From Chitinophagales bacterium (lineage in GTDB: Bacteria; Bacteroidota; Bacteroidia; Chitinophagales; Chitinophagaceae), in contig JAFLBN010000025.1 in assembly GCA_017303395.1 (NCBI GenBank), positions 1 through 41,585 of the forward strand: a stretch of DNA of 41,585 bases, written 5' to 3'. The position numbers and the translations under genes are program-made. Below the pieces are notes generated by a model that had not been told where the DNA came from, searched no databases, and worked only from the letters and a program-made list of their open reading frames with translations. Below, piece after piece: positions 518 to 41,585 of this stretch; within the stretch, counting starts at the first letter, position 1, and each line of letters begins with the position of its first letter.

Positions 518-637
518 TGTGTTGTTTTGTTTTTTGTTTTGTTAATTGATGAATTGTTTGTGTTTGTATATTTTTTGCTTTGCTTGGTTGCTGCCTTACG
601 GGGCTGCTGTGTGTTTTTTTTGTTTGTTTTGATAATG

Positions 638-720
638 CAAACATACACCCGCAAACACCCCTGTCACATCACTAACCTTAGTAGTTTTATCACTATTTAT
701 CTGCTTAACAATCAATTCAC
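638..720 (-). promoter_or_regulatory. Class A promoter of paralog 1 with phased TTAAC-type boxes
   Basis: On the minus strand a perfect TAnnTTTG element (TATGTTTG) lies at 645-638. An ACTAAnnTTAGT palindrome follows upstream at 671-682. Two 11-bp-phased boxes lie further upstream, TTAAC at 705-709 and TTCAC at 716-720 (plus-strand notation). The first box starts 59 bp beyond the -7 element, the same position as in paralog 4 and 1 bp from paralog 3. The predicted leader is about 115 nt. The motifs are seen directly; the promoter role is inferred. Confidence 0.6.
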
Positions 721-1654: not shown

Positions 1655-1738
1655 CAAAGATGCAACGCGGAATACGATATTGACGAAAAACCGGGCCTCC
1701 TTAACCCTGTCTTAGCAAGCGGTTAACGGGCAATTAAC
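1655..1738 (-). promoter_or_regulatory. Class B promoter of paralog 2: four boxes at 11-bp period
   Basis: The minus-strand -7-like element is CATCTTTG (plus 1655-1662). After exactly 38 bp come four boxes in plus notation: TTAAC 1701, TTAGC 1712, TTAAC 1723 and TTAAC 1734, each starting 11 bp after the last. Coding-strand order is GTTAA, GTTAA, GCTAA, GTTAA, then the -7 element. The same spacing recurs in paralogs 6 and 7. An activator-binding array is inferred. Confidence 0.7.
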
Positions 1739-1797
1739 AACTCTTACTGCCGATAAAATGGCACCAAACCCAATACAGCATGGGCATACAGACAAAA

Positions 1798-1821
1798 AAA
1801 GCGCTCTTTTCAGAGCGCTTT
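1798..1821 (-). terminator. Intrinsic terminator of paralog 3
   Basis: A perfect 10-bp inverted repeat, AAAGCGCTCT/AGAGCGCTTT with loop TTTC, is flanked by A-rich sequence on the left. It lies 58 bp downstream of the paralog 3 stop on the minus strand. Confidence 0.8.
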
Positions 1822-1879
1822 ACCCACATTAACCATTTACAAAAACCACCCCCTATTATGAAAAACCATTATATTGATA

Positions 1880-2428
1880 TTAAAGCTGCGTAGCAGTGTA
1901 AACTACATCTGTAGTGTATGTACCTGCAGGGTATGCGAAACCTGGTTCAGCTTCGTACTTCACGCTGAATGTTTGGTTGCCACCGTTTACACCATTGCTT
2001 ATCAGGTTTGCTGCAGTATTGCTCATCGCTGTGTATGCAGTAGTGCTGAATGGAGAAGCGATAGTACCACCTGTACCGTTAGCTATCACTTTCAAGCCCA
2101 ATACGCTTACAGGCATTACAGGAGCAGGAGTAGTTGTACCTGTGTAAGTAAATGATGCACCACTTGTCTTTACTGTAACACCAAATTTTTTGTTAGAACG
2201 TACTTTCAGTTCCTGTGTAGCAGATTCTACACCGTTTGCATAGTCGTTAACTGTGTTGAAAGCCAGGTTAACTGTAGCACCTGTTGCAGAGTTGTTGCCT
2301 GTGAAAGTCAACTCGATTGCGTTGCTCAGGTTCAGGTTTACTGTTTGTGTAGCAGTAGATGATGCGTTCTGTGCTTTTGCAGAGAAACCTACGATTGCCA
2401 TTGCTGCGATTGCGATTACTTTTTTCAT
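1880..2428 (-). CDS. Secreted beta-rich paralog 3
   Basis: A 182-aa protein with a signal peptide ending SAKAQ and one extra residue in the N-terminal mature segment (NASSTATQ). It has the same core motifs as its neighbours: NLSNAIELTFTG, VNDYANGV, LKVRSNKKFGVTVK, GGNQTFSV and GTYTTDVVYTATQL. It groups with paralogs 1 and 4 by the NNSATGA segment and by its promoter type. It has no cysteine in the mature chain. Role unknown; probably exported through Sec and either periplasmic or surface located. Confidence 0.9.
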   Translation of the reverse strand: MKKVIAIAAMAIVGFSAKAQNASSTATQTVNLNLSNAIELTFTGNNSATGATVNLAFNTVNDYANGVESATQELKVRSNKKFGVTVKTSGASFTYTGTTTPAPVMPVSVLGLKVIANGTGGTIASPFSTTAYTAMSNTAANLISNGVNGGNQTFSVKYEAEPGFAYPAGTYTTDVVYTATQL

Positions 2429-2535
2429 TGTGTTGTTTTGTTTTTTGTTTTTGTTAATTGATGAATTGATTGTGTTTAGAAATTATTGTTTGCTGCCTTA
2501 CGGGGCTGCTGTGTTTTTTGTTTGTTTTGATAATG

Positions 2536-2619
2536 CAAACATACACCCGTAAATGCCCCTTTCACATCACTAACATTAGTAGTTATTATCACTATCTGCT
2601 TGGTTAACAAGCCGTTTAC
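2536..2619 (-). promoter_or_regulatory. Class A promoter of paralog 3
   Basis: A perfect minus-strand TATGTTTG lies at plus 2536-2543. The palindrome ACTAACATTAGT is at 2569-2580, with 25 bp between it and the -7 element. Phased boxes TTAAC (2604) and TTTAC (2615) are 11 bp apart, starting 60 bp beyond the -7 element. That is exactly the position of boxes 3 and 4 in class B. Confidence 0.65.
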
Positions 2620-2642
2620 AAATCATTACATAAACATAAAAA

Positions 2643-2661
2643 AGCGCCGCATTGCGACGCT
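2643..2661 (-). terminator. Intrinsic terminator of paralog 4
   Basis: On the minus strand an 8-bp stem AGCGUCGC/GCGGCGCU with one G-U pair and a 3-nt loop is followed by a T-run. It lies 28 bp after the paralog 4 stop. Confidence 0.8.
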
Positions 2662-2689
2662 CTTTATATCATTCTCACGCTTATCAATA

Positions 2690-3238
2690 TTAGAGTTGAG
2701 TAGCAGTGTAAACTACATCTACAGTATATGTACCTGCAGGGTATGTAAAGCCCGGAGTAGCTTCATACATTACGCTGAATGTTTGGTTGCCACCGTTCAA
2801 ACCATTGCTTATCAGGTTGGCTGCTGTAGCAGACAATGTATTGTATGCAGTAGCACTGAATGGAGTAGCAATAGTACCACCTGTACCGTTAGCGCTAACT
2901 TTCAGGCCCAGAACACCACTTACAGGCATTGTAGGTGCAGGAGTTGTAGAACCTGTGTAAGAGAAGTTTGCTGCACTTGTTTTTACTGATACACCGAATT
3001 TCTTGTTAGAACGTACTTTCAGTTGTTGTGCTGCAGATTCTACACCGTTTGCATAGTCGTTAACAGTGTTGAAAGCAAGGTTTACTGCTGCACCTGTTGC
3101 AGAGTTGTTGCCTGTGAATGTCAACTCGATAGCGTTGCTCAGATTCAGGTTAACTGTTTGAGTAGCTGTAGATGCAACTTGTGCTTTTGCTGCGATACCT
3201 ACGAATGACAGTGCTGCGATTGCGATTACTTTTTTCAT
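2690..3238 (-). CDS. Secreted beta-rich paralog 4
   Basis: A 182-aa protein with signal peptide MKKVIAIAALSFVGIAAKAQ. The mature portion is nearly the same as paralog 1 (NNSATGAAVNLAF, SAAQQLKVRSNKKFGV, NGLNGGNQTFSVMYEATPGF). The signal peptide is instead identical to that of paralog 6, whose mature part belongs to the other subgroup. This suggests recombination between array members. No cysteine in the mature chain. Same predicted secreted beta-sandwich type; function unknown. Confidence 0.9.
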   Translation of the reverse strand: MKKVIAIAALSFVGIAAKAQVASTATQTVNLNLSNAIELTFTGNNSATGAAVNLAFNTVNDYANGVESAAQQLKVRSNKKFGVSVKTSAANFSYTGSTTPAPTMPVSGVLGLKVSANGTGGTIATPFSATAYNTLSATAANLISNGLNGGNQTFSVMYEATPGFTYPAGTYTVDVVYTATQL

Positions 3239-3363
3239 TGTGTTGTTTTGTTTTTTGTTTTGTTAATTAATGAATTGTTTGTGTTTATTTATTTTTTGTT
3301 TGTTCTGTTTGGTTTGCGGCCTTACGGGGCTGCTGTGTGTTTTGTTTGTTTGTTTTGATAATG

Positions 3364-3446
3364 CAAACATACTACCACAAATACCCCTGTCACATCACTA
3401 ACCTTAGTAGTTTTCCTACTAATGTGACGGTTAACAAGGCGTTTAC
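3364..3446 (-). promoter_or_regulatory. Class A promoter of paralog 4
   Basis: Minus-strand TATGTTTG at plus 3364-3371; palindrome ACTAACCTTAGT at 3397-3408; boxes TTAAC (3431) and TTTAC (3442) at 11-bp spacing, starting 59 bp beyond the -7 element. The distal box ends only 5 bp from the stop of paralog 5, so no room is left for a separate terminator there. Confidence 0.65.
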
Positions 3447-3451
3447 AAATG

Positions 3452-3988
3452 CTATTGTTGTGTGGCGGTATAGATAATATCTACCGTATAAACACCAGGT
3501 GGGTAAGCAAAGCCCGGCGCAGCACGATACACGACGCTTATATTTTCAGCGCTGCAACTTTCACCGTTTATTATCAGGTTGTTATCACTGTCTTTAATTG
3601 TATGGTAATTGCGAACCGAGAATGGTGCGGCAACTGTACCACAGGTAGTATTTTGCAACACACGTATACTCAGCACACCATCTACAGGCATAGTGGGTTG
3701 TGGCATAGACACACCGTTGTATGTAAAATGCGGAGCCATAGCTCTGATGGTAATATCGAACTTCTGTTGCGAGCACACACGCAATTGTTGCGGGTCTGAT
3801 ACTACACCCTTTTCAAAATCGGTTGTGCTTTTAAAAGCAAGATGTACCGCGTTATTATTTACCCAGGCAAGCTCTATGGCATTGTGCAAATCTAGCTGCA
3901 CTTGCTGCACAGCATTAGCACCGGCAGTTTGCGCATCGGCAATGCGAAACTGGATAGTAAGAATAAATAACAAAACAAATCTGCGCAT
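3452..3988 (-). CDS. Divergent secreted paralog 5
   Basis: A 178-aa member of the same family but strongly diverged. It keeps a signal peptide (ends ADAQ), NAIELAW, a degraded form of the NDYANGV motif (TDFEKGV), QLRVCSQQKFDI in place of LKVRSNKKFGV, PTMPVDGVL, and the C-terminal PPGVYTVDIIYTATQQ. It has three cysteines in the mature chain (VCSQQ, NTTCGT, GESCSA), so a disulfide is possible. It lacks the phased promoter boxes of all other copies. A weak -7-like TAATTTTA (plus 4023-4030) is the only promoter candidate. No terminator is visible behind it. It may have a different partner or localisation; function unknown. Confidence 0.85.
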   Translation of the reverse strand: MRRFVLLFILTIQFRIADAQTAGANAVQQVQLDLHNAIELAWVNNNAVHLAFKSTTDFEKGVVSDPQQLRVCSQQKFDITIRAMAPHFTYNGVSMPQPTMPVDGVLSIRVLQNTTCGTVAAPFSVRNYHTIKDSDNNLIINGESCSAENISVVYRAAPGFAYPPGVYTVDIIYTATQQ

Positions 3989-4059
3989 AGGCTGTAGACA
4001 TTAATATTGTTTTGTTCATCAGTAAAATTAGTCATCTATCCGGCATATATGCAAACAAA

Positions 4060-4087
4060 AAAGAGCGCCCTTACGGGGACGCTCTTT
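4060..4087 (-). terminator. Intrinsic terminator of paralog 6
   Basis: The stem AAAGAGCG...CGCTCTTT is extended by CCC/GGG across a one-base bulge, with loop TTAC and an A-tract on the left (U-tract in minus RNA). It sits 27 bp beyond the paralog 6 stop and upstream of paralog 5. Confidence 0.8.
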
Positions 4088-4114
4088 ATATAATTCTATA
4101 ACTATTGTTTCAGA

Positions 4115-4663
4115 TTACAGTTGAGTAGCAGTGTAAACTACATCTGTAGTGTAAGTACCTGCAGGGTAAGCAAAACCAGGTGTTGCTTCATACATTACAC
4201 TGAATGTTTGGTTACCACCGTTATTACAGTTTGTCAAAAGGTTAGCTGCAGTTGCAGAAAGATCATTATAAGCTGATGCGCTGAATGGAGAAGCGATAGC
4301 ACCACCTGTTGCATTTGCGCTCACTTTCAGTGCCAGCACACCTGCTACAGGCATTACAGGAGCAGGAGTAGTAGAACCCGTATATGAGAAGTTAGCGTTG
4401 TTCGTTTTTACAGTTACACCGAATTTTTTGTTAGAACGTACTTTCAGTTCCTGTGCAGATGATGTAACACCATTTGCATAATCGTTAACTGTATTGAAAG
4501 CCAGATTAACAGCAGCACCGGTAGCAGTTCCTGATCCTGTGAATGTCAGTTCGATTGCGTTGCTCAGGTTCAGGTTTACTGTTTGTGTAGCTGTAGAAGC
4601 AACTTGTGCTTTTGCTGCGATACCTACGAATGACAGTGCTGCGATTGCGATTACTTTTTTCAT
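4115..4663 (-). CDS. Secreted beta-rich paralog 6
   Basis: A 182-aa protein. The signal peptide and first mature residues are identical to paralog 4, while the remainder (NNANFSYTG, LLTNCNNGGNQTFSV, PVAGVLALKV) follows paralog 2, including the lone cysteine. The leader is short, A-rich on the coding strand and without a Shine-Dalgarno. It has a class B promoter and its own terminator. Secreted beta-rich protein of unknown function. Confidence 0.9.
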   Translation of the reverse strand: MKKVIAIAALSFVGIAAKAQVASTATQTVNLNLSNAIELTFTGSGTATGAAVNLAFNTVNDYANGVTSSAQELKVRSNKKFGVTVKTNNANFSYTGSTTPAPVMPVAGVLALKVSANATGGAIASPFSASAYNDLSATAANLLTNCNNGGNQTFSVMYEATPGFAYPAGTYTTDVVYTATQL

Positions 4664-4727
4664 AATTGTTTGTTTTTGTTTGTTTGCGATTTGTTTTTGT
4701 TAGTTGTTTTTGTTGTTGATTGTGATG

Positions 4728-4811
4728 CAAATATGGGGGCAAGAACAGCCGATGTTCAAATTTTCATGCTTTGTTAACGCCCGTTTTGCAAGCGGTTAAC
4801 AAGCAGTTAAC
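4728..4811 (-). promoter_or_regulatory. Class B promoter of paralog 6
   Basis: The -7-like CATATTTG is on the minus strand at plus 4728-4735. After 38 bp come TTAAC 4774, TTTGC 4785, TTAAC 4796 and TTAAC 4807, an exact 11-bp period. As in paralogs 2 and 7, the second box from the promoter is the deviant one. Confidence 0.7.
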
Positions 4812-4840
4812 AACTGTAAATCAATGACTTATAAAACAAA

Positions 4841-4877
4841 ACCCCTGCAAACCGCACTGGTGGCGTGTTGCAGGGGT
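4841..4877 (-). terminator. Intrinsic terminator of paralog 7
   Basis: A perfect 10-bp stem ACCCCTGCAA (4841-4850) / TTGCAGGGGT (4868-4877) encloses a 17-nt loop. A-rich sequence on the left gives a T-rich tail on the minus strand. It lies 36 bp beyond the stop of paralog 7. Confidence 0.75.
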
Positions 4878-4913
4878 ATGTAACAAACAATTAGAAATCA
4901 ACAACTAATATTA

Positions 4914-5441
4914 CTATGCCTGGGTGGCAGTATAGATTATCTCCATTGCGTATGTACCTGCAGGATAGGTAAAGCCCGGTGTAGCCCTGTATTGCACACT
5001 GAAGGTATTGCTACCGCCCGGTGTGGCATTGCTAATCATGGGCTTGCCATTGGTACTTAATGATGTGAAATTGCTGTGGCCCGATGTGATGACGCCACCT
5101 GTGTTATTATTATACACCTTTAGACGCAGCACAGAAAGCGGCATTTTAGGATCTGCACCTGTGCCTGCAAAGCTGAAGCGTGAAGTCCTTGCCTTTACGC
5201 GTACATTAAATTTCTTGTTGGAACGCACCTGCAATTGTTGCTCTGCAGATACAATACCGTTTGCATAATCGTTAACGGTCACAAAATTCATCTGCGGATT
5301 TGCACCTGTAAGGATGGTAAGCTCAATAGCATTGCTCATATCAAGCTTTACGGCTTGTGTTGCAGCAGAGTTGGCGCTCTGGGCAACAGCCGCGGCCATC
5401 ATCACTGGCAGCATTACGGCGGTTAAAAGAATCTTTTTCAT
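4914..5441 (-). CDS. Secreted beta-rich paralog 7
   Basis: A 175-aa protein starting at MKKILLTAV. A longer in-frame extension to 5501 is rejected because it would place 20 non-signal residues before the signal peptide and overlap the promoter. The signal peptide ends VAQ. The core keeps AATQAVKLDMSNAIELTI, VNDYANGIVSAEQQLQVRSNKKFNV, the GGSNTFSVQYRATPGFTYPAG run and YTATQ. It lacks several loop insertions and is the second most divergent copy, yet it keeps the complete four-box promoter. This suggests the regulatory design is older than the recent duplications. Function unknown. Confidence 0.88.
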   Translation of the reverse strand: MKKILLTAVMLPVMMAAAVAQSANSAATQAVKLDMSNAIELTILTGANPQMNFVTVNDYANGIVSAEQQLQVRSNKKFNVRVKARTSRFSFAGTGADPKMPLSVLRLKVYNNNTGGVITSGHSNFTSLSTNGKPMISNATPGGSNTFSVQYRATPGFTYPAGTYAMEIIYTATQA

Positions 5442-5469
5442 ACTTGGCGGTTTGTTTGTGTTTGTAAGG

Positions 5470-5553
5470 CAAAGATGCAACCACCATGCCCCAACAGCCA
5501 AGAAAAAACAGTCGGTTAACCGTCCCTTAGCAACCGCTTAACGCACGCTTAAC
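5470..5553 (-). promoter_or_regulatory. Class B promoter of paralog 7
   Basis: The -7-like CATCTTTG (plus 5470-5477) is followed after 38 bp by TTAAC 5516, TTAGC 5527, TTAAC 5538 and TTAAC 5549, an exact 11-bp period. The geometry is identical to paralogs 2 and 6 although the surrounding bases have diverged, so the boxes are conserved as boxes. Confidence 0.72.
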
Positions 5554-6523: not shown

Positions 6524-6669
6524 AGCTCTCCTCCTGTTTTTAGGAGGAGTACCCGAGTGCAACGAGGGGGAGGTGGTAAATACTCTACGCGAGCCTACCA
6601 CCCCGATTGGCTTACGACATGCTGCGCACGTCTGCGCCAATATCCCCTCCTAAAAACAGGAGGGGAGCT
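6524..6669 (+). repeat. Palindromic-ended repeat element, copy A
   Basis: A 146-bp element bounded by AGCT. Its two ends are hairpins that are inverted copies of one another: CTCCTCCT/AGGAGGAG at 6528-6549 and CCCCTCCT/AGGAGGGG at 6644-6665, each with a 6-nt loop. The interior has further inverted repeats, GGTGGTA/TACCACC and ATTGGC/GCCAAT. It looks like a non-autonomous MITE- or REP-like element. No transposase is adjacent. Confidence 0.8.
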
Positions 6670-7527: not shown

Positions 7528-7670
7528 AGCTCCCCTTCTGTTCTTAGGAGGGGATATTGACGAAAGCTGCGGAGCAGGCTTTTGTCAATCGGGGTGGTTA
7601 AACTCGCGTAGAGTGTTTACCACCTCCCCCTCGCTACACTCGGGTACTCCTCCTAAAAACAGTAAGAGAG
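7528..7670 (-). repeat. Palindromic-ended repeat element, copy B (inverted)
   Basis: A 143-bp element that is the reverse complement of copy A with scattered substitutions. The end hairpins are present but one is imperfect (CCCCTTCT/AGGAGGGG). The central segment GGGGGAGGTGGTAAA...ACTCTACGCGAG is strongly conserved between copies. Together with copy A it brackets 6701-7483 in inverted orientation, ending about 90 bp before uvrA. Confidence 0.8.
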
Positions 7671-38090: not shown

Positions 38091-38668
38091 GTAATTAAAT
38101 ACCCATTAAAAAAGCGGCAACACTGCCGCTTTCTGTTGGGGTATATTGATAGCCAATTACTTACATTTTATTCCTTCACCACCTTCACACTCATCCTGTC
38201 GCCATTGTCTTTGCTCAGTATCAGCATGTAGCTGCCTGGTGCCAGATGGCTCATGTTCAACTCTGTAGTTTCGTTTGTTGCTGTCGCTTTTACCACTACT
38301 CTGCCAAGCACATCATTCAGTTGTATTTTTGTCCCTTTATCTATCCCTTCTATTATCAGCTTCTCTGTTGCGGGGTTCGGGTAGATGCTCGGTTCTTTGC
38401 CTGTCCACACACCAACTATACCTGTGCTCTCTATGCTCACTTTGATACAGTTACTCTTCGCTGTCTTCGGATTCGGGCACAGGTAATTGCTTGTCATATC
38501 CACACATATCTGGTCGTTGTTGCTCAGTGTACTTGCACCCTAGATATTGCTGATAGCACCCACTACAGGTGTACCGTTGCGTGTCCATTGGTAGCCTGGT
38601 TTATTGCCACCATTTGTTGGTGTGGCCGTGAAGTTAATCATCGTACCGCTCGTCACAGTTGTGTTAGG
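38091..38668. repeat. 578-bp direct repeat, copy 1
   Basis: It matches 41008-41585 at a constant offset of 2917 bp. By eye only five differences were found, all between 38213 and 38258, and none in the remaining roughly 530 bp. It covers the terminator, the sorting domain and part of the last Ig-like unit, and probably continues past the window edge in the other copy. Confidence 0.9.
38114..38129 (-). terminator. Intrinsic terminator after the broken gene
   Basis: Stem GCGGCA/TGCCGC with loop ACAC and a 6-nt A-tract on the left (U-run in minus RNA). It is repeated exactly at 41031-41046. Confidence 0.85.
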
Positions 38669-41084: not shown

Positions 41085-41585
41085 TTATTCCTTCACCACC
41101 TTCACACTCATCCTGTCGCCATTGTCTTTACTCAGCGTCAGCATGTAGCTGCCTGCTGCCAGATGGCTCATGTTTAACTCTGTAGTTTCGTTTGTTGCTG
41201 TCGCTTTTACCACTACTCTGCCAAGCACATCATTCAGTTGTATTTTTGTCCCTTTATCTATCCCTTCTATTATCAGCTTCTCTGTTGCGGGGTTCGGGTA
41301 GATGCTCGGTTCTTTGCCTGTCCACACACCAACTATACCTGTGCTCTCTATGCTCACTTTGATACAGTTACTCTTCGCTGTCTTCGGATTCGGGCACAGG
41401 TAATTGCTTGTCATATCCACACATATCTGGTCGTTGTTGCTCAGTGTACTTGCACCCTAGATATTGCTGATAGCACCCACTACAGGTGTACCGTTGCGTG
41501 TCCATTGGTAGCCTGGTTTATTGCCACCATTTGTTGGTGTGGCCGTGAAGTTAATCATCGTACCGCTCGTCACAGTTGTGTTAGG
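41085..41585 (-). pseudogene. 3' end of another T9SS Ig-repeat gene, with in-frame TAG
   Basis: A frame open to the window edge encodes the last Ig-like unit (MINFTATPTNGGNKPGYQW type). It meets TAG at 41459-41457 in place of the conserved Trp, then continues as a sorting domain ending KVVKE (111 aa from an internal ATG at 41420). The protein level differs from the copy at 38168 by only two residues (P to A, I to T in LAxGSYMLxLS). Whether the rest of the gene is intact cannot be seen. It could also be a truncated donor cassette. Confidence 0.7.

Follow-up and report, generated by a model that had tools for sequence, protein, structure and literature searches.

Phased four-box GTTAA arrays at promoters of pilin-like and small surface-protein genes in a genus of Chitinophagaceae: a candidate operator of a shared regulator

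Why should neighbouring genes of one family carry, in front of their promoters, the same four short boxes at the same steps and at the same distance, when the DNA between the boxes has diverged? The question is raised by a 41,585-nucleotide stretch of DNA from a Chitinophagales bacterium (contig JAFLBN010000025.1 of assembly GCA_017303395.1; the whole stretch is hereafter called the window), in which arrays of four GTTAA-like boxes lie upstream of paralogs 2, 6 and 7 of a family of pilin-like secreted proteins. An earlier interpretation made without database searches (the sequence-only reading) had ascribed these arrays to a protein bound along a single face of the helix, and had suggested a regulator of the LytTR type. 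We find that the array is a promoter-bound element present throughout the genus, with a strict geometry and a characteristic set of targets, and that at pilin-like and small surface-protein genes it very probably marks a shared genetic switch.

All three arrays are present in the window at the positions given by the sequence-only reading (Table 1). Neighbouring boxes follow each other at steps of 11 bp throughout, and exactly 38 bp separate the array from a CATnTTTG -7 element in each of the three cases, both as had been claimed. The same holds for the deviant box, the second in plus notation and the third in gene direction, which was read as TTAGC, TTTGC and TTAGC in plus notation; a profile of aligned sites (see below) shows that this box is conserved in its own right, as TTG[CT][AT]AA in gene direction. 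The assignment of arrays to paralogs 2, 6 and 7 was correct, while the list of box-bearing paralogs was too short, for paralogs 1, 3 and 4 carry two boxes each. A scan of the window with up to three mismatches allowed returned six matches, namely the three exact arrays and three shifted registers of two of them; in 100 dinucleotide shuffles the mean was 0.01 matches and the maximum was one.

In the source genome (3.76 Mb), a scan with up to three mismatches retrieved 29 forward and 29 reverse matches, and the reversed-pattern control retrieved none on either strand. The 30 matches with at most two mismatches (loci L025-L054) were aligned together with their downstream sequences, and 24 of them are within one mismatch of a refined pattern, GTTAA-N6-GTTAA-N6-GYWAA-N6-GTTAA. 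When the best -7 element was sought over offsets of 20 to 70 from the array, it was found at 38 in 22 of these 24 close sites, at 37 in one and at 39 in one. Thus, the arrays sit at promoters and are not scattered at random positions of the genome. Genes of the family are located downstream of 16 of the 24 close sites, and seven of the 22 sites at offset 38 are followed by genes or RNAs outside the family.

The profile mentioned above was built from 139 distinct site sequences, pooled from the collected loci and chosen by the box pattern. In gene direction it reads GTTAAtCGcTc GTTAACCGcTT GcaAAncCGGg GTTAAcaag, followed by TTTG at columns 52-55 and CATcTTTG at columns 77-84. The consensus published for sigma(ABfr), in the part of PMC7366714 that describes it, is TAnnTTTG at -7 and TTTG near -33; the promoter of the 139-site profile agrees with it, but the first base of the -7 element is more often C than T. 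A scan of source-genome stretches with the profile gave 75 hits, shifted registers included, against three in first-order shuffles. Because the profile sites had been chosen by pattern, an alignment by the promoter columns alone was also made. Out of 148 distinct upstream regions of family genes, 100 score above 8, and in these GTTAA is found at boxes 1, 2 and 4 in 79, 69 and 81 cases, respectively, and GYWAA at box 3 in at least 65. Where boxes 1 and 4 depart from GTTAA, the array has mostly shifted by one or two bases relative to the promoter; box 2 also shows true variants, for instance GCAAA. In the common form all boxes lie upstream of the -33 element, with 13 bp between box 4 and TTTG. 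Longer forms were seen by eye: six in-phase boxes, running on to the -33 region, in front of a paralog of 186 amino acids (aa) that belongs to a gene cluster on contig C40, and about six or seven GTTAA-like boxes, at steps of 11 or 12 bp with one of 15, at three promoters of membrane microprotein genes.

Every one of the 15 genomes of the genus contains the refined array without a mismatch, with 21 copies in the source genome, 1 to 18 in the others and none in the reversed controls. Among 149 genomes of the order only two match the refined pattern without mismatch, the source genome being one of them; the single match outside the genus (G089) was taken as chance because it falls within a long reading frame called by a simple gene caller and a -7 element at 38 is missing. 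The gene family itself was found in relatives that include Chitinophagaceae bacteria LGM1 and IBVUCB1, Flavipsychrobacter sp. bins and other bins mostly labelled Bacteroidetes. Of their 78 loci, 65 were usable (in the other 13 the match did not start at residue 1 or the upstream sequence was too short), and the array is present within two mismatches in 53 and within three in 61 of the 65 upstream regions, with none within three in four. In these relatives, then, related genes have kept their arrays. The distance from array to -7 element in these relatives is mostly 38, with 37 recurring and one case of about 50 (by eye). When arrays at DUF4402 genes were looked for in other genera of Chitinophagaceae, 6 of 60 genomes gave a match; among five clear DUF4402 homologs from other genera (L215-L219), a partial site is found at L215 only. 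A literature search limited to open-licence papers found no account of the arrays or of the paralogs of the genus. Across 15 genomes, and also in front of unrelated genes, the phase, the number of boxes and the distance stay the same while the spacers vary; this supports the proposal of a protein that occupies a single face of the helix, at a set distance from the promoter.

What do the arrays precede? The main family comprises secreted proteins of about 180 residues, with 27 matches in the source genome. No Pfam model scored above cut-off for the five family paralogs searched. The structure predicted for paralog 6 (predicted local distance difference test score, pLDDT, 86.4) has CfaB as its best PDB match (E value 2.4e-5), followed by FimA and others, with Csu at rank 15; the superposition of this predicted structure on pilins is poor, with TM-scores of about 0.36 to 0.54 and root-mean-square deviations mostly of 7 to 13 A. 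In genomes G161 (three arrays) and G001 (two arrays), one array precedes a DUF4402-type gene, which is followed by a gene for a PapD-like chaperone (E values 7e-27 for DUF4402, tested in G161, and 8e-4, short of the cut-off, for the chaperone). Other targets in the source genome are a 1024-aa protein that carries a type IX secretion tail, an 89-aa protein and a lipoprotein-like gene (by eye), as well as two paired genes of 94/95 aa in the vicinity of a phage-like portal gene. At L156:7860-11225, array sites of differing strength precede a locus that consists of an exosortase gene and genes for short proteins with a CTERM-like tail (PLDGGL, PIDEGL). The membrane microproteins, 20 to 32 aa long and ending in AVN[FLI] (AVNF, AVNL, AVNI), have weak or extended arrays and strong promoters.

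A second class of promoter is found at paralogs 1, 3 and 4, whose two boxes are in the phase of the array and have the consensus GTRAA-N6-GTTAA. The nearer box ends 59, 60 and 59 bp from the -7 element, compared with 60 bp for box 2 of the four-box arrays, and the position of boxes 3 and 4 is occupied by an inverted-repeat element (CTAANNTTAG). This inverted repeat, which occurs with TTAGTGATGTG in all three two-box promoters (670-684, 2568-2582 and 3396-3410), is perhaps the site of a second regulator. Out of 14 aligned rows picked by the second element, 12 show only the 11-bp pair, and two have a different promoter. The smallest unit would be two boxes one turn apart, which is what an OmpR-type domain binding as a tandem dimer would require.

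The explanation that we favour, and hold to be probable though with considerable doubt, is that the arrays serve as operator for a single genus-wide regulator, likely an activator and most plausibly a winged-helix protein of the OmpR/PhoB type, bound head to tail with one subunit per 11 bp. While the array, its geometry, its conservation in the genus and its targets are shown by the sequences, we infer that a single protein acts at all sites, that it activates, that it has an OmpR/PhoB-type winged helix and that it binds as dimers. According to this proposal, four subunits arranged head to tail as two tandem dimers would occupy one face of the DNA. Each would sit on an 11-bp half-site resembling, in gene direction, [T/C]GTWAA[C/T], and the row of subunits would be followed immediately by a housekeeping promoter of the sigma(ABfr) type, with TTTG near -33 and [TC]AnnTTTG near -7. 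The bound regulator would contact RNA polymerase, and the distance to the promoter would be fixed to about 1 bp for that reason. Promoters of class A have four boxes, or six or seven in a few cases (by eye), and those of class B (paralogs 1, 3 and 4) the two distal boxes only, together with the second element.

Known operators of OmpR/PhoB-type regulators include the PhoP and WalR/YycF boxes of B. subtilis, the pho box of E. coli and SARP sites. As far as the descriptions in PMC5405149 and PMC10936776 extend, operators of the OmpR/PhoB type resemble the arrays in having 11-bp direct repeats upstream of or over the promoter and TTAACA/TGTTAA-like half-sites: predicted YycF/WalR sites include TTAACA pairs spaced 11 bp (PMC5405149), and SARP proteins with an OmpR-type domain have direct repeats 11 or 22 bp apart (PMC10936776). 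Unlike them, the arrays described here stand clear of the -33 element, consist of four boxes at one fixed distance, keep a deviant third box and are in their strict form almost confined to one genus of the order. OmpR-type regulators (PF00486) are encoded in all 15 genomes of the genus (114 genes); the source genome has nine, and 11 LytTR genes. In a comparison of seven genomes (38 stretches from six of them and two from G003), best-hit orthologs of the source genes L133, L135, L138 and L141 were found in all seven, which was not so for the other five OmpR-type genes. Judged by this distribution, these four orthogroups would be the candidate regulators, none of them being singled out.

Several observations weigh against such a regulator. 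The strict array is absent from 147 of the 148 other genomes of the order, which is odd for a widely conserved protein, and the alignment of 148 upstream regions is not fully independent of the box pattern, given that its promoter columns come from pattern-selected sites. None of the 114 OmpR-type genes is located within 4.7 kb of any of the 150 arrays listed (out of 163 tallied), so that these give no sign of autoregulation; the 3.2 kb around the nine OmpR-type genes of the source genome likewise give no array-like score. PhoU is absent from the source genome, so that it offers no Pho regulon against which to check a PhoB-like protein. The spacers of the arrays are rich in G+C, and the wings of the OmpR/PhoB family often prefer A+T. 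Finally, the survey of regulators covered the OmpR-type and LytTR families among the DNA-binding families.

The regulator type named by the sequence-only reading comes second and is disfavoured. A LytTR-type response regulator would occupy boxes 2 and 4, at their distance of 22 bp, and a second dimer might take boxes 1 and 3; we regard this as unlikely. The core GTTnA of the array does resemble the LytTR family consensus, the DUF4402 promoter L215 from another genus has boxes 2 and 4 only, and besides the 11 LytTR genes of the source genome one can point to L149, a LytTR gene directly upstream of a weaker array. As in the sites of AgrA and HdrR/BrsR, the direct repeats stand immediately before the promoter; in the published cases described in PMC6193735 their distance to the -35 element is mostly about 10 bp, compared with 13 bp between box 4 and TTTG here. 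However, LytTR sites in the same description have two repeats with 12 bp between them, in some cases 11 or 13, which makes the period about two turns (PMC6193735), whereas the arrays consist of contiguous 11-bp units and the two-box promoters of lone pairs. The period here is one turn, adjacent boxes are 6 bp apart and only boxes 1/3 and 2/4 are at a period of 22; 12 of the 14 second-element rows keep just the adjacent 11-bp pair, and all four boxes are similarly conserved in the alignment of 148 upstream regions. The suggestion of a LytTR protein is thus not supported. As to individual genes, L149 was ruled out as the common regulator because of its distribution, close orthologs (at least 67% identity) being found in 4 of the 15 array-bearing genomes, the source included. 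A LytTR gene with a kinase lies within about 8 kb of an array cluster in G000, G002, G012 and G004, but other flanking genes of this C40-type cluster are also shared in the four genomes, and the proximity may be simple synteny. In the source genome, L153:10803-14595 encodes a LytTR response regulator and a two-component propeller kinase beside a cluster of three arrays, and LytTR genes are nearby in L194, L195 and L198 as well.

Less likely still is cooperative occupation of the repeats by some other protein that binds head to tail, for example a MerR protein like BldC or a new fold. The number of boxes, from two to about seven (partly by eye), would suit it, since BldC lines up head to tail on direct repeats whose number varies, but each BldC subunit takes up 9 bp in the complexes described in PMC5859096, and the unit here is 11 bp. 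The arrays also resemble the TAACTGA repeats of Beggiatoaceae, Cyanobacteria and some Bacteroidetes in being short intergenic direct repeats; those, however, are built on another heptamer and are not, in the portion of PMC4679880 that concerns us, tied to a promoter at a fixed distance. In their best-studied genome they lie mostly just upstream of start codons, and a post-transcriptional action was proposed (PMC4679880).

That the arrays bind a repressor and not an activator appears a little more improbable again. The sequence leaves the sign of the effect unfixed, and at the 186-aa paralog of the C40 cluster the boxes extend to the -33 region; in most promoters, however, they are wholly upstream of -33, which is a usual position for activators, and the constancy of the distance points to contact with RNA polymerase. 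That the arrays were merely carried along by duplication of the pilin-like family, with no common function, is very improbable: 16 of the 24 close sites do precede one family and some promoter regions are nearly identical, but the box columns are near invariant while the spacers vary (in sites that were chosen by their boxes), seven source-genome sites at offset 38 precede other genes or RNAs, and the array is kept at family genes only 35 to 56% identical to the best window paralog.

One further target is an RNA. The array at contig C40:77238 is followed by a promoter, tandem hairpins, a reading frame of about 32 codons and a terminator, with no long gene. Such hairpins are found behind arrays in eight genomes, and the small reading frame (translated by eye) recurs with variation in seven of the eight, G009 being the exception. 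A total of 66 hairpins, 5 to 10 per genome, passed a pairing filter; their loops read CCGTAA in 58, CTGTAA in 6 and CAGTAA in 2 cases, of which only the leading C and the second loop base are free results, since the search imposed GTAA. Another 13 occurrences of NNGTAA failed the filter, and hairpins with other loops are also present in the RNA. The stems covary: among 44 distinct units, 92.4% of the stem cells are paired, compared with 68.6% after shuffling, the first figure being inflated because the units had been selected for pairing; double changes number 59 compared with 15.6 after shuffling, and the covariation is lost when the partners are slid. A simple reading of the hairpins as GNRA terminators is disfavoured because the closing pair varies (C-G, U-A, A-U, G-C) and C[CUA]GUAA is constant. 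Taken as a whole, the RNA has an unremarkable folding energy (z -1.58; an equally good fold was reached in 5 of 100 shuffles), and Rfam gave no match at gathering score in the window, L153, L194 or L195.

A model of the hairpin matched the source genome with E values up to 10 in at least 21 places among 150 of 1269 first-look candidates that were scored. Ten of these are in the RNA, two in the leader of a 95-aa gene behind a weaker array, five in two-box leaders, and four are terminator-like and stand beside family genes. In 98 kb of source sequence scored in full the best value was 17.4 bits, compared with 20.7 to 34.5 bits for the RNA hairpins listed. A hairpin of the CCGUAA type is found in all 14 upstream regions of the second-element type, in 3 of 100 of the four-box type and in 4 of 34 unclassed ones; the 14 are related by descent and are a different set from the 14 rows scored for the box pair. 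Matches outside the array RNA and family leaders occur at L195:776-797 (27.8 bits), L194:12193-12214 (20.3 bits) and L196:883-904 (20.3 bits), and count against exclusiveness.

We tentatively consider, as a doubtful but specific possibility, that the regulator of the arrays switches in two layers between sets of pilin-like surface proteins, by way of a Csr-like decoy circuit. It would switch on the class A genes together with the RNA of tandem C[CU]GUAA-loop hairpins; this RNA would titrate a hypothetical hairpin-binding protein, which would otherwise act on the class B paralogs through their single CCGUAA leader hairpin. Such a circuit would explain why the hairpin is repeated in the array-driven RNA and single in the leaders of the other class. 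A plain leader function for the small reading frame, or stabilisation of the transcript, would also fit. In Csr systems, decoy RNAs carry tandem hairpins and share the hairpin with mRNA leaders, and CsrA binds GGA-containing loops. Like CsrB/RsmZ, the array RNA repeats in tandem a hairpin whose loop is conserved, and shares this hairpin with mRNA leaders; unlike them, its loops read CCGUAA, CUGUAA or CAGUAA and not GGA, and a small reading frame follows. In Bacteroides thetaiotaomicron, the RNA-binding protein RbpB and the paralogous FopS RNA family control surface proteins post-transcriptionally (PMC11697453), a mode of control in Bacteroidota that is proposed for the hairpin RNA as well. FopS RNAs, as characterised in the relevant part of that paper, differ in being about 65 to 70 nucleotides long, with an unpaired 5' seed and a terminator hairpin and not tandem hairpins with a shared loop.

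On contig C40 (about 50-81 kb; loci L163 and L153), phage-like genes, with matches to a portal protein (phrog_7376, E value 2e-14) and Terminase_3 (E value 2e-50) and a weak one to a tape-measure protein, are interleaved with array-driven genes; this is possibly a domesticated phage or a gene-transfer-agent-like cluster. By eye, a terminase-like gene directly follows an array-driven pilin-like gene in G000, G002, G008 and G012 and is near one in G007. Two observations, both made by eye, concern other parts of the window. Positions 6527-6665 and 7531-7670 each hold a copy of a dispersed sequence that has a GGAGGGG...CCTCC repeat and may be a small non-autonomous element. Positions 38168-38503 and 41085-41420 encode near-identical C-terminal parts of large secreted proteins, which suggests a recent duplication at the end of the window.

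Table 1. Features of the arrays, their promoters and targets. Plain positions refer to the window; positions with a prefix refer to the locus or contig named.
Feature	Position	Strand	Remarks
Four-box array, paralog 2	1701..1738	-	Gene direction GTTAA N6 GTTAA N6 GCTAA N6 GTTAA; plus notation 1701 TTAAC, 1712 TTAGC, 1723 TTAAC, 1734 TTAAC
-7 element CATCTTTG, paralog 2	1655..1662	-	38 bp from array; plus notation CAAAGATG
T-rich -33-like element TTTTTCG, paralog 2	1684..1690	-	In the place of the conserved TTTG
Paralog 2, pilin-like secreted protein, 182 aa	1046..1594	-	Structure model is of paralog 6
Four-box array, paralog 6	4774..4811	-	Sequence and pattern scans; plus notation 4774 TTAAC, 4785 TTTGC, 4796 TTAAC, 4807 TTAAC
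-7 element CATATTTG, paralog 6	4728..4735	-	38 bp from array; plus notation CAAATATG
-33 element AAAATTTG, paralog 6	4757..4764	-	Aligned sites and site profile
Paralog 6, pilin-like secreted protein, 182 aa	4115..4663	-	Structure model and PDB comparison
Four-box array, paralog 7	5516..5553	-	Sequence and pattern scans; plus notation 5516 TTAAC, 5527 TTAGC, 5538 TTAAC, 5549 TTAAC
-7 element CATCTTTG, paralog 7	5470..5477	-	38 bp from array; plus notation CAAAGATG
Paralog 7, secreted protein of same family	4914..5444	-	
Two-box site, paralog 1	705..720	-	GTGAA N6 GTTAA; boxes 705/716; 59 bp from -7 at 638-645
Two-box site, paralog 3	2604..2619	-	GTAAA N6 GTTAA; boxes 2604/2615; 60 bp from -7 at 2536-2543
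Two-box site, paralog 4	3431..3446	-	GTAAA N6 GTTAA; boxes 3431/3442; 59 bp from -7 at 3364-3371
Second element of two-box promoters, CTAACCTTAG inverted repeat, paralog 1	670..684	-	
Second-element equivalents, paralogs 3 and 4	2568-2582 and 3396-3410	-	
CCGUAA-loop hairpin, leader of paralog 1	588..609	-	25.9 bits
CCGUAA-loop hairpin, leader of paralog 3	2490..2511	-	25.9 bits
CCGUAA-loop hairpin, leader of paralog 4	3314..3335	-	27.0 bits
CCGUAA-loop terminator-like hairpin, between paralogs 5 and 6	4063..4084	-	18.2 bits
Hairpin-array RNA	L153:7276-7990 (contig C40:77276-77990)		Equivalents L194, L195, L196, L197, L198, L199, L213
Membrane microprotein family	L154:7418 and L154:9298; L164:9850; L214:9214	-; +; +	

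The arrays thus define a genus-wide regulon of Bacteroidota from sequence alone, with a geometry strict enough for members to be found by a scan, including genes below the size of routine annotation and a structured RNA. The identity of the regulator is narrowed to nearly a one-experiment question, and the promoters offer a natural system in which to study the control of transcription by the spacing to the unusual sigma(ABfr) promoter. The arrays also point to a possible decoy-RNA circuit which, if true, would bring a new recognition motif to Bacteroidota, linked to a conserved phage-like gene cluster and to a family of membrane microproteins.

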